7,700 bases of DNA, taken from Candidatus Mcinerneyibacteriota bacterium (GTDB lineage Bacteria > AUK180 > JAQVHJ01). The stretch spans positions 1 to 7,700 of the forward strand of contig DAOVMD010000131.1 of NCBI GenBank assembly GCA_030630935.1. Reading direction: 5' to 3'. A program made the translations under genes and the position numbers. The notes under the pieces were generated by a model, which was not told the DNA's origin, ran no database searches, and saw only the letters and a program-made list of their open reading frames with translations. Shown here piece by piece: positions 2,047 through 7,700 of the stretch. Positions within the stretch are counted from its first letter, which is position 1. Every line of letters starts with the position of its first letter.

Positions 2047-2078
2047 TTCTATTCATTTTTTTATCCCATATAATCATG
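2047..2078 (+). repeat. Left part of the IS-interrupted repeat, with target duplication
   Basis: The first 22 bases are identical to 76-97. The stretch ends in AATCATG (2072-2078), directly against the IS. AATCATG recurs at 3895-3901 on the other side of the IS, whereas the intact copy near 99-105 has it once. It is therefore read as the target-site duplication. Confidence 0.8.
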
Positions 2079-2157
2079 TGGTACTGTGAAATGTTTATTC
2101 ACAGAAACCTGTTATTTATCGAATAATACGATATTTATATAATTTTACTTGCTTCCC

Positions 2158-2195
2158 CCCGCTTTTTTTGATAATATTATCAAATTAAAAGCGGG
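2158..2195 (+). promoter_or_regulatory. Hairpin abutting the transposase ribosome-binding site
   Basis: CCCGCTTTT (2158-2166) pairs with AAAAGCGGG (2187-2195), and TTTGATAAT (2167-2175) pairs with ATTATCAAA (2176-2184), leaving only a TT bulge. This is nominally 18 bp. Its 3' arm overlaps the start of the Shine-Dalgarno site GGGAGG (2193-2198). A transcript entering from outside the IS would fold here and mask the site. A transcript started at GATAAT (2170-2175, with TTGCTT 15 bases upstream) would begin inside the 3' arm and escape. A second candidate -10, TATAAT (2138-2143), has a poor -35 and would include the hairpin. Confidence 0.6.
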
Positions 2196-2207
2196 AGGAA
2201 AACAAAC

Positions 2208-3656
2208 TTGAAAAAAATTATGCGCTTTGTTATATGGATTTGTACTAAATTTACACGGGCTGAAATCGAAGAAATAATTAAAGGCCTGACAGATATTGTC
2301 AATGACAGAAACCCTGAGGTCAAGCCCAAAGATGATTTTCAGGAGAAACATCCAAACTACCGTAAGTTCTATGTAGATCCAAAACCGCCCTTAACTCCTG
2401 AAAAAAAAGTTACGGAAAAAAAATATTGGAGAGACTTGATTAAACAATTCAAAAAGAAATACGGGAAAAAACTTCAGCCGGTTAAAAATAAAAAAAAGGG
2501 AACTGCTGTCCCTAAAAATTCAAGGTGCAGAATATGCGGAGCTCCGGCAAAATATCTGTACTTCAACGACGGTAAAAAAAGAACACAGCTAAGATGCAAG
2601 GTTTGTAATTCATTGTCACAGATTCATCCGAGAAATAGATATAAAACAAAATACCTGTGCCCGTACTGCTGCAGAGCCCTGTATCTATGGAAAGAAAGAA
2701 AAGATTGTTCAATTTACAAATGTAATAATGATGAATGCCAATGTTATCTTCAAAATAAAACTAAGCTGAATATCGCTGAAAAGATAATTGTCGCTGTAAG
2801 ATCTTCTCAATTCAAACTTAGATACCAATTCAGAGAATATCACTTCACATATGCCCACCTGAAACCTACAGAACCTAAAAGAAAAATAATTAACATTAGA
2901 AACTCTCTGAATACCATGACTCTCGCTTTAGCTTTTTATGTATCAATGGGATTGTCTTCAAGAAAAACAGCATTCATATTGAAAAACATTTTCTCTATTG
3001 ATATCTCGTATAAAACGGTAATAAACTATGCTGAAGCTGCTGCGTATCACTGTAATAAGTTTAACAACGCTTACAAAGGTGAAGTTGATTCAAGACAGGC
3101 AGGTGATGAAACATATATCAAAATCAATGGTAAAAATGCTTATGTATTCTTCTTCATTGGAGAAAAATCAAGAGTCATTTCTGCATACCATGTTGCTGAA
3201 ACAAGAGACACATTGCCCGCAATTATTACTATGAATGAAGCAATTAGAAATGTGAGTAAAGACAATAGTGAAACAACATTGATAACTGACGGAAACCCAT
3301 CATATCAGGCCGGTATTCATTTTATTAACCAACTCTTTAAAAAAAACATTGTCCATAAAAAGGTCATCGGATTGCAAAATCTCGATAACGAATCTGAAGA
3401 GTTCAGGCCTCTTAAACAACTGATCGAAAGACTTAATCGAACATTTAAATACCATACCAAAAACAGATGCGGGTTCAAATCTAAAAACGGAGCGGTTGTC
3501 CTCACTTCTCTCTTTGTTACTCACTACAACTTCATCAGGCCTCATCAAGCCTTAAAATATAACGTCCCTGTTCAGGTAAATGAAATAACTGATATGAAAA
3601 CTATTCAGGGAAAATGGTCTAAAATTATTCAGATGGGAATGGATAAGGCTGCATAA
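2208..3656 (+). CDS. IS6/IS240-like DDE transposase with N-terminal zinc ribbons
   Basis: The 482-residue product should cut and join the IS ends. Start TTG at 2208 sits 9 bases after GGGAGG. Residues 1-100 are lysine-rich. Two zinc-ribbon candidates follow: C107/C110 with C130/C133, and C151/C154 with C172 and C177 or C179. A helix-turn-helix-like stretch lies near 248-278 (GLSSRKTAFIL...SYKTVINY). The catalytic domain shows D300 (GDETYIKINGK, the classic IS6 DETY-K pattern), D361 (TDGNPSY) and E407 (IERLNRTFK), then a C-terminal HYNFIRPHQAL. The D361-E407 gap of 45 residues exceeds the 34 usual in IS6, so this is a divergent branch. Typical IS6 transposases are about 230 residues, half this length. 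The gene fills the IS and no frameshift is seen. The overlapping open frames on the other strand are shadows. Confidence 0.85.
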   Translation: MKKIMRFVIWICTKFTRAEIEEIIKGLTDIVNDRNPEVKPKDDFQEKHPNYRKFYVDPKPPLTPEKKVTEKKYWRDLIKQFKKKYGKKLQPVKNKKKGTAVPKNSRCRICGAPAKYLYFNDGKKRTQLRCKVCNSLSQIHPRNRYKTKYLCPYCCRALYLWKERKDCSIYKCNNDECQCYLQNKTKLNIAEKIIVAVRSSQFKLRYQFREYHFTYAHLKPTEPKRKIINIRNSLNTMTLALAFYVSMGLSSRKTAFILKNIFSIDISYKTVINYAEAAAYHCNKFNNAYKGEVDSRQAGDETYIKINGKNAYVFFFIGEKSRVISAYHVAETRDTLPAIITMNEAIRNVSKDNSETTLITDGNPSYQAGIHFINQLFKKNIVHKKVIGLQNLDNESEEFRPLKQLIERLNRTFKYHTKNRCGFKSKNGAVVLTSLFVTHYNFIRPHQALKYNVPVQVNEITDMKTIQGKWSKIIQMGMDKAA

Positions 3657-3894
3657 ATAAATAACAAATTAACCGAATACATAATCTTCAATACAAAATC
3701 TATCTGGAAATCTAAAGGACTGCAATCCATATAATATTGTTGTAAAAATAAATATGTCAAAGAACTGATCTATATTAAATCATCTTATAAATGAACCTCT
3801 GAAAACTTAGTAAGTAAGAAAAGAGCTGCTTCATATATATACTTTTGGGGTAGGTTTATGTTTCATATTCTTTCATATTACTTTTCACACTACC

Positions 3895-3935
3895 AATCAT
3901 GCTTCCGGAATCCATGATTCCAATCTATGTTAAAT
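3895..3935 (+). repeat. Right part of the IS-interrupted repeat, with hairpin
   Basis: It begins with the second AATCATG (3895-3901), followed by hairpin GGAATC-CAT-GATTCC (3907-3921) and CCAATCTATGTTAAATAT. Compared with GGAAGC-TTT-GCTTCC at 111-125, one stem pair changes from G-C to T-A with pairing kept, and the loop differs completely. Confidence 0.75.
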
Positions 3936-5937: not shown

Positions 5938-7098
5938 TTGAAGAAATATATTAAACCACTCTTAGGAGTATTTTTTATTTTTTTAGTCTTCGGACTGATT
6001 GATTCATATAGAAGTGTTCTTTTACCGCAAATTAAAGCTGAGTTCAATATCAACTATAAATTTGTCGCTCTAGTCTTTTTCTTATCAGGTCTGGGTTATA
6101 TAGCCGGGAATCTTTTAGGTGGTGAACTGGCTGAACGAATTAAGAGAAAATTAAGTATTTTAATTGGGATATTCTTGATTTTTATCCCTATTATAATCAT
6201 TGTGTTTAATCGCTCATACTTAATCTTCCTATTATTAATGTTTGTAATTGGAACTGGTCAGGGTTTATTGAATACAATCTCCAATGTCCTGGTCATGAGT
6301 TTTAAGCTGAAGAAAAAAGGCGGTGCCTTAAGTATGCTCCATTCATTCTATGGTATGGGGGCATTAATAACACCGGTAATTCTTTCTCAATTATTAAGTA
6401 ATGGTGTTGCCTGGAGGAATACTTTTATTTTGCTATGGGTGATATACGCTCTTTTAATATTTTATTTCATCTTAATTCGAGTACCTGAAACGGTGCTGGT
6501 TGAAGAATGCATTAAACCAAAATCTGAAATGAAAATTTTTAAGAAGGGTGTAATTTGGTTCTACTTAACTGTCTTTTTTTATATGGGTAGTGAAGTAGGA
6601 TTATGTGCATGGCTAATTATTTACCTTCAGAAATTTCATTCTTTCTCAATTAATCTGAGCTCGCTCTATCTGACACTCTTTTTTATTGCATTAACATTAT
6701 CAAGATTGATTGGGGGGGGGCTGGTAGATAAATTCCACTATCTAAAATCATCAATTGCTTTATTAATAATTGTATTAGTACTGCTTTTTGTTGGATTGAA
6801 TTTTGGGAAGGCAACATTGTTTTTATTACCTATAACAGGTTTATTTTATGGGACAGTTTTTCCTAATATTACAGTTGCATTAAAAACTTATCAGCCGCAT
6901 TCCAGCAGAATCATGGGAGTATTTCTGGCATCTGCGAGCCTTGGAGCTATGCTCTTTATATTTCTAATCGGTTTTATTATGGACTCGATTAATCTACAAA
7001 CCGGAATGCTTAGTATAATATTATTCACGATTATTACAATTATTTGTCTAATAATACTTAAGATTAATTCACGGCAATTAAAAAGTTCTTTAGTATAA
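5938..7098 (+). CDS. Major facilitator superfamily permease, FucP-like branch
   Basis: The 386-residue, strongly hydrophobic product has about 12 predicted membrane segments, the standard MFS length. Motif A between helices 2 and 3 is GGELAERIKRK (61-71). The repeat-half equivalent is SRLIGGGLVDKF (255-266). LHSFYGMGALITP (134-146) and YMGSEVGLCAWLIIYL (215-230) match the pattern seen in sugar-permease-like MFS members related to fucose permease FucP. The substrate and direction are unknown. The start is TTG at 5938, 5 bases after the HD-GYP stop. GGAGG (5921-5925) is 12 bases upstream, inside the previous gene, which suggests translational coupling. Codons 259-261 are a run of nine G, where one-base slippage would truncate the protein. 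No terminator is seen after the TAA. Confidence 0.85.
   Translation: MKKYIKPLLGVFFIFLVFGLIDSYRSVLLPQIKAEFNINYKFVALVFFLSGLGYIAGNLLGGELAERIKRKLSILIGIFLIFIPIIIIVFNRSYLIFLLLMFVIGTGQGLLNTISNVLVMSFKLKKKGGALSMLHSFYGMGALITPVILSQLLSNGVAWRNTFILLWVIYALLIFYFILIRVPETVLVEECIKPKSEMKIFKKGVIWFYLTVFFYMGSEVGLCAWLIIYLQKFHSFSINLSSLYLTLFFIALTLSRLIGGGLVDKFHYLKSSIALLIIVLVLLFVGLNFGKATLFLLPITGLFYGTVFPNITVALKTYQPHSSRIMGVFLASASLGAMLFIFLIGFIMDSINLQTGMLSIILFTIITIICLIILKINSRQLKSSLV
6712..6720 (+). repeat. Nine-G homopolymer inside the permease gene
   Basis: Codons 259-261 are GGG GGG GGG, in a gene that is otherwise AT-rich and uses other glycine codons freely. With eight G the frame reads TGG TAG, stopping at once. With ten it reads GCT GGT AGA TAA. 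Either change removes the C-terminal third of the permease. Confidence 0.8.
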
Positions 7099-7119
7099 AT
7101 CATAAAACTAACATTAACT

Positions 7120-7265
7120 GATAGTGTGAAAAACGTTATGAAAGAATATGAAAAATAAAACTACTCCATCAAGACAGGCAAATGGGGTGAGGTAGCTGGA
7201 AGTCCTGTAAATATCGTATTAATCGATAAATAACAGGTTTCTGTGAATAAACATTTCACAGTATC
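7120..7265 (-). mobile_element. Miniature non-autonomous relative of the IS (MITE-like), 146 bp
   Basis: Read on the minus strand, 7263-7208 matches IS positions 2082-2137 at 55 of 56 bases, and the other end (about 7165-7120) is a diverged copy of the IS right end (3850-3894), sharing TTCATATTCTTTCATA and TCACACTA. The termini are GATAGTGTGAAA and, on the other strand, GATACTGTGAAA. CATTAAC flanks both sides (7112-7118 and 7266-7272) as a 7-bp target duplication, or 8 bp with a T/C mismatch. The core of about 45 bases (7163-7207) is more GC-rich and does not match the IS. The element has no transposase gene and would depend on one supplied in trans. Confidence 0.8.
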
Positions 7266-7287
7266 CATTAACCTAAAAGGAGGTTTT

Positions 7288-7700
7288 ATGAAAAGGTTTA
7301 ATCTTCATACACTTATAATTCTGCTGTTACTTGTATTATTTACAGTTTCAGCAGGTGCTGCAAAGAAAGATTTTCAAATAAATAAATTAAGTAATGGTCT
7401 GACAATTATTACAAAGGAGATTCATTTTGTACCTGTGACGTCACTTTATGTTTTTTATCGAGTAGGTTCAATAAATGAGTATGGTCAGATTCTCGGGATC
7501 TCCCATATTGTTGAGCATATGATGTTCAAAGGTACCAAGAATTTCGGTCCAAATGATATTGATAAATTAATCAAATCAGTTGGCGGTTCCCATAATGCGT
7601 ATACCTCTAATGATTTAACAGCTTATTATATCAATCTTCCTTCTAATGCAATTGATATTGGTTTAATGATTGAAGCTGATAGAATGGAAAACTCCAGGAT
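7288..7700 (+). CDS. Exported M16-family zinc peptidase, N-terminal part
   Basis: The first 137 residues are present and the gene continues past the window. A signal peptide (MKRF, a hydrophobic run from about residue 8 to 20, likely cut near AGA-A25) precedes the M16 fold. The zinc-binding motif HxxEH is H73-I-V-E76-H77, followed by MMFKGT. GGSHNAYTSNDLTAYY (99-114) is the conserved second block of the family. The third zinc ligand, a glutamate usually about 75 residues after HxxEH, lies beyond the window. E76 should be the catalytic base, so activity is likely, in the periplasm or at the envelope. The start ATG has AAAAGGAGG (7275-7283) 4 bases upstream. The miniature element ends only 22 bases before the ATG, so any promoter of its own must lie inside that element or further up. 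Confidence 0.9.
   Translation, partial: MKRFNLHTLIILLLLVLFTVSAGAAKKDFQINKLSNGLTIITKEIHFVPVTSLYVFYRVGSINEYGQILGISHIVEHMMFKGTKNFGPNDIDKLIKSVGGSHNAYTSNDLTAYYINLPSNAIDIGLMIEADRMENSR

Follow-up and report, generated by a model that had tools for sequence, protein, structure and literature searches.

What is the 146-bp sequence that lies between an MFS transporter gene and an M16 peptidase gene in this Candidatus Mcinerneyibacteriota genome, and why does it lie where it does? The window, by which we mean the whole stretch of 7,700 nucleotides analysed, is a complete contig (C331) of a draft genome of 3.16 Mb in 471 contigs that is about 80% complete. The answer that we consider quite probable is that the sequence, together with the insertion sequence (IS) resident in the same window, belongs to a family of IS6-like elements that choose their targets left end first and anchored on the Shine-Dalgarno (SD) sequence of a gene.

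The 146-bp element

The element occupies positions 7120 to 7265 on the minus strand, with its left end, of the type proximal to the transposase gene in the IS, at 7265 and its right end at 7120. The MFS transporter gene (5938-7098, plus strand) lies 5' of it; a run of nine G residues at 6712-6720 in that reading frame may be a slippage or contingency tract, or else a source of assembly error. Beyond the left end come the SD sequence AGGAGG of the downstream gene (7278-7283, plus strand), whose A is base 12, counted from 0, outside that end, and the M16 peptidase gene itself (7288-7700, plus strand, truncated by the contig end), whose ATG is base 22 from the left end. The two copies of the target duplication, CATTAACT on the right-end side (7112-7119) and CATTAACC on the left-end side (7266-7273), are identical at 7 of 8 bases with one mismatch, and the CATTAAC that the initial annotation had noticed as a direct repeat outside the unit accounts for seven of those eight bases.

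That both end types of the IS are present in the same relative order, as had been described, was borne out, the orientation being inverted relative to the IS. The reported asymmetry between the ends was reproduced as well: the transposase-proximal end (7208-7263) is identical to the IS at 55 of 56 bases, and the other end matches the distal end of the IS at 39 of 46 (84.8%). In a search of the genome itself, the left end of the IS matched the element at E = 1.8e-21 and the right end at E = 1.1e-8, and the resemblance lies far beyond chance. The termini of the element read GATACTG and GATAGTG, and those of the resident IS begin with GGTA, again as first noted.

The greater divergence of the distal end had been attributed to a sister IS as parent or to unequal constraint. 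Neither is called for, because many non-autonomous copies in the genome have a right end of this subtype, and that of one of them (L087) is identical to it at 42 of 43 bases. Bases 59-97 of the element are interior sequence foreign to the IS that matches about ten longer copies at 87-97% identity, and the whole of bases 1-97 is common to about ten genome copies at the same level. Because these first 97 bases are so widely shared and the right end matches that of L087, the element is an internally deleted, non-autonomous derivative of the IS6-like family. It carries both IS ends, contains no open reading frame (ORF) and is flanked by target duplications, as do miniature inverted-repeat transposable elements (MITEs); near-identical copies at several different sites were not seen, the other copies sharing only parts of it. 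The multi-copy MITE family foreseen in the initial annotation thus exists as a non-autonomous family with varied flanks, but not as a set of near-identical 146-bp units, the 146-bp form itself having turned up only once in this draft genome. Taken alone, the element is a sound, modest observation of the MITE type.

We rate at about even chances that nothing ever transposed as 146 bp and that the unit arose in situ, from a longer insertion whose interior was subsequently deleted. The single copy and the sharing of bases 59-97 with longer copies speak for such a history, as does the deletion junction, at which TGGAGT is joined directly to right-end sequence. Nothing decisive speaks against it, and the target duplication fits both this course of events and transposition of the 146-bp unit.

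Non-autonomous copies in the genome

About 30 left ends and about 28 right ends of the family are present in the draft assembly, from which all genome copies were taken and in which contigs often end inside these repeats. Complete elements without a transposase measure 146, 486, 719, 744, and 1135 bp, and the interiors of the longer ones are built of other dispersed repeats. One such repeat, TTAACCACTGAACACACTGAACACGCC, which forms much of these interiors, also occurs in the window as an inverted pair at 290-320 and 1768-1800. In contig C365 (L013/L073) two left ends, at L013 positions 1401 and 1495, form a tandem pair with an SD-like sequence after each, the SD region itself apparently having been duplicated. 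The element at 2652-3137 of L040 is flanked by a direct repeat of 13 bp (TCTTGTTTTTTCA) rather than 8 bp.

The resident insertion sequence

The full-length IS (2080-3894, plus strand) is 1815 bp long, runs from GGTACTG to CACTACC, and carries the only copy of its transposase gene found in this roughly 80% complete genome. Its target duplication consists of AATCATGT at 2072-2079 on the left and AATCATGC at 3895-3902 on the right, the latter identical to the left copy at 7 of 8 bases. The left end (2080-2137, plus strand) contains the inverted repeats CTGTGAA/TTCACAG and TATCG/CGATA, and the right end (3791-3894, minus strand) comprises about 100 bp that are conserved in the longer non-autonomous copies. 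Read outward from the left end, the target (2054-2067, minus strand) has GGG at bases 12-14 and ATG at base 23, with no long ORF after it. The IS was inserted into a dispersed non-coding repeat, TTTTTTATCCCA..AATCATG..CTTCCGGAA (2054-2079), which also occurs near positions 80-130 and in the 744-bp element of L002.

The transposase (2208-3656, plus strand; 482 aa) consists of an N-terminal extension, cysteine clusters, a helical DNA-binding region, and a DDE domain. Its cysteines follow an extension of about 100 aa as pairs at 107/110 and 130/133, of a pattern typical of a zinc ribbon, with a second cluster at 151-177. D300, D361, and E407 are invariant in 11 sequences, and the IS240-type DDE domain (PF13610) was found in all 11 transposase relatives. 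A structural model (mean pLDDT 70.5) has an RNase H-like core whose nearest counterparts are those of ISCth4 and retroviral integrases; by sequence, the transposase had no match among solved structures. Against the NCBIfam model for IS6 (NF033587) it scored 86 bits, below the curated cut-off of 125, a result in keeping with the suggestion that the long clade be treated as a family of its own.

Relatives in other hosts

Relatives were gathered blind to their flanks and comprised 39 candidate loci from public genomes, further genomes, and plasmids. Scanning public genome contigs with a single protein yielded none, a scan with a two-sequence alignment succeeded, and scanning viral contigs for transposase relatives found none. 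Left ends were located by their terminal motif, because automatic pairing by duplication and inverted repeat gave many false pairs; perfect duplications back this placement in ten cases. The hosts span Clostridia, Aerophobetes, Atribacteria, Omnitrophota, Deltaproteobacteria, Elusimicrobia, KSB1, Brocadia, Aminicenantes, and Acidobacteriota, and further relatives are borne on plasmids of Geobacillus, Pediococcus, and Levilactobacillus. The left ends of these relatives follow the SD rule set out below, which holds at 28-63% transposase identity, L142 being only 28-30% identical.

Perfect 8-bp duplications flank six of 16 chromosomal relatives (L146, L151, L156, L157, L158, and L167) and four on plasmids (L184, L185, L187, and L189). 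The other ten chromosomal relatives have no matching duplication, and nearly all of their left ends are still anchored on an SD sequence; such copies would fit the intramolecular replicative transposition of IS6-type elements (PMC7986276). In Levilactobacillus brevis KB290 (plasmid pKB290-1) the IS measures 1760 bp, has the duplication CTAGTGGC, and precedes an annotated start codon by 23 bases; its flanks, once joined, align over 80% or more of their length with 148 records of related lactobacillus plasmids, in the best case as a single unbroken stretch of 600 bp at 99.7%. For the insertion on Pediococcus damnosus pL21533-5, which has the duplication GAATGTCA and an ATG at 23, CP012291 carries the site without the element, matching over 390 bases at 99.7%. 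These empty plasmid sites prove clean insertion for two relatives. Perfect duplications are also seen on Geobacillus stearothermophilus pEF60063-1 (CATAATTA, ATG at 24) and G. kaustophilus pHTA426 (ACTGAAAC).

In L147 (30-64) the left end of the IS lies 8 bp from the apparent right end of another copy, giving a tandem of right end, 8 bp, and left end. The right ends of relatives (L144-L178) share a strongly conserved ATGAAA about 18 bases from the terminus that is absent from the left ends; it is possibly a transposase-binding site that resembles a gene start.

Target sites

Read outward from the left end, nearly every copy of the family meets an SD sequence and then a start codon. We compared 63 left-end flanks, 26 from this genome and 37 from transposase-linked copies in many phyla (the latter include some closely related IS, at different genes), with 41 right-end flanks from the same families as an internal control, numbering bases from 0 outward from the junction. 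G at base 14 was found in 58 of 63 left-end and 4 of 41 right-end flanks (Fisher p = 3e-18), GG at bases 13-14 in 46 of 63 and 1 of 41 (p = 6e-14), and GGAG starting at base 13 in 31 of 63 and none of 41 (p = 5e-9). ATG started at bases 21-26 in 55 of the left-end flanks as against 2 of the right-end flanks (p = 3e-18), and an ORF began at bases 20-26 in 47 and none, respectively, ORFs having been called mechanically except in the plasmid records.

Aligned on the junction, the 63 left-end flanks give a profile that is flat save for the A+T-rich duplication and a peak at bases 12-16, the composition of which is A/G (93%), G (79%), G (92%), A/G (95%), and G (70%), with GG at 13-14 as the most fixed feature. 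The SD core is therefore what is held in place, and the ATG shifts with the SD spacing. An apparently tighter anchoring on the ATG (standard deviation of 0.93 against 1.86 for the best AGGAGG match near the ATG) was rejected as an artefact of ambiguous SD calls. The SD motif also occurs where no gene start follows (L123, L145, L157, and L073), and L116 deviates in having its SD three bases closer, one of few such sites.

In 137 kb of contigs of this genome, picked regardless of the elements, only 15 of 47 non-coding RGGAG words were followed by ATG at SD spacing; among the insertions in this genome the figure was about 23 of 27 (p ~2e-8). Because of this difference AGGAG alone is insufficient to explain the choice of site, and beyond it there must exist either a second signal, with more of the initiation region being read, or a bias in retention.

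Target choice

We propose that the 146-bp element relies on transposase supplied in trans, probably by the resident IS, and that this enzyme would join the ends to an A+T-rich target so as to produce the 8-bp duplication. The target would be set by the adjoining translation-initiation region, with the SD core AGGAG at bases 12-16 outside the left end, so that this end faces the gene with the ATG 22-25 bases away. On the target DNA, the SD motif may be read by a domain of the transposase, which probably takes in further parts of the initiation region as well. The SD words that lack a start codon, and the position of the resident IS in a non-coding repeat, indicate that a DNA signal suffices at least sometimes, and the variable spacing between SD and ATG does not fit a rigid bipartite protein footprint. 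Insertion into the leader with the ribosome-binding site untouched would limit harm to the host.

The left end (for example 7208-7265), read outward, would fold as RNA into two hairpins just 5' of the SD (z ~ -3), and insertions may therefore remodel the leader of the gene that follows, so that its expression could plausibly be affected. A different account draws on this: insertion would be roughly random wherever the DNA is A+T-rich, and only selection would retain those copies that lie just 5' of an SD and turn their left end towards the gene, for example because that end provides a promoter or an insulating hairpin; insertions within genes would simply be lost. We think this improbable, since from one unrelated host to the next the SD lies at almost exactly the same distance, whereas leader length is less constrained and insertions hundreds of bases upstream, which should be tolerated, were not seen, and since sites without a gene start still carry the motif. 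That unrelated hosts share one position and one orientation speaks for a transposition machinery that recognises its target, and against selection as the sole cause. We give equally little credence to a further version, in which the transposase senses active translation initiation (nascent mRNA or an initiating ribosome), for instance through its zinc-ribbon and N-terminal domains, so that insertion would be coupled to expression.

Other readings of the element

The GATA termini had been taken to point to a matched sister family, and both outermost ends do read GATA in a genome only about 80% complete, from which a sister IS with such ends could be absent or missing through assembly. We judge that the element was very probably not carried by such an IS. 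The second base of the terminus varies among copies (GG, GT, GC, and GA; other left ends start with GGTA, GTTA, or GCTA) and between the two ends of single relatives, as in L156, one end of which reads GGTA and the other GATA, so that GATA versus GGTA is not diagnostic. Both ends of the element are, moreover, 97-98% identical to the ends of other copies in the same genome, in which one transposase gene only was found. A conserved, non-mobile regulatory element of the 5' leader, to which a single copy kept at this locus in relatives had been said to point, would account for the constant distance to the SD and start codon and for the hairpins, but it is hardly credible given two separate ends shared with the IS, the 8-bp duplications, empty sites in relatives that refute it for the family, and no comparable match to the element in 59 other genomes, among them one from its own family and five from its class.

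Three further candidates were set aside. The genes next to the SD are not cargo of the elements, as the genes downstream of insertions are unrelated to one another and the duplication sits between the end and the SD. In an outward hybrid promoter, with TTGACA supplied by the TGTCAA ends, the -10 box would by our reasoning fall on the SD itself. An integron-like cassette array was dismissed, duplications and empty sites being those of plain insertion.

Relation to known elements

In length, domain order, and duplication, the IS fits clade VIII of the IS6 family (ISTet2, ISHahy6, and ISHco2) of Harmer & Hall 2019, a long clade with a zinc finger that is apparently clade i of Varani et al. 2021. 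The clade comprises elements of 1.7-1.8 kb with a transposase of about 450-480 aa, a zinc finger and an N-terminal extension of about 100 aa, an IS240-type DDE domain, an 8-bp duplication, and ends that mostly start with GG (PMC6807381, PMC7986276). The IS described here, with its IS240-type DDE domain, zinc finger and extension of about 100 aa in a protein of 482 aa, length of 1815 bp, and 8-bp duplication, agrees with that description. The passages of the two reviews that were consulted report no target preference and note no experimental data for the clade, whereas the family described here is anchored on the SD. Full-text searches, in which subscription journals were thinly covered, returned no report of SD targeting by IS6-like elements or by the long clade, and an earlier description is possible.

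IS900 belongs to the IS110 family, has a DEDD transposase, and makes no 8-bp duplication. Its transposase is thus of an unrelated class, whereas the present family has a DDE IS6-like transposase and an 8-bp duplication 5' of the SD and is not a member of the IS900 family, even though the outcome, a fixed position relative to the SD and start codon, is alike. The title of Doran et al. 1997, as cited in PMC8141618, reports that IS900 targets signals of translation initiation. A parallel for targeting at a fixed distance by a DDE transposase is the IS1202 family (ISAjo2 and ISAba71), which lies at a fixed distance of 5 bp from the XerC site of pdif and in one orientation (PMC10132070); it differs in its target, a 5-bp duplication, a TnsB-like transposase, and TGT/ACA ends. 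The IS6-family MITEs MITEBth2 (227 bp) and MITEHarch3 (336 bp) likewise have both IS ends and no ORF, but belong to other IS, whereas the copies in this genome range from 146 to 1135 bp, have interiors made of other repeats, and are nearly all anchored on an SD.

Implications

The main interest of these observations is a widespread IS6-like clade that inserts left end first at a fixed distance 5' of the SD. If true, this would be an unusual case of targeting that is precise to the base, fixed in orientation, and sparing of genes without a known accessory target selector, and it would offer a testable system for target choice by an IS6-like transposase. It predicts that non-autonomous copies such as the 146-bp element accumulate in 5' leaders and between co-directional genes, and the family could be used to place sequences immediately 5' of ribosome-binding sites.
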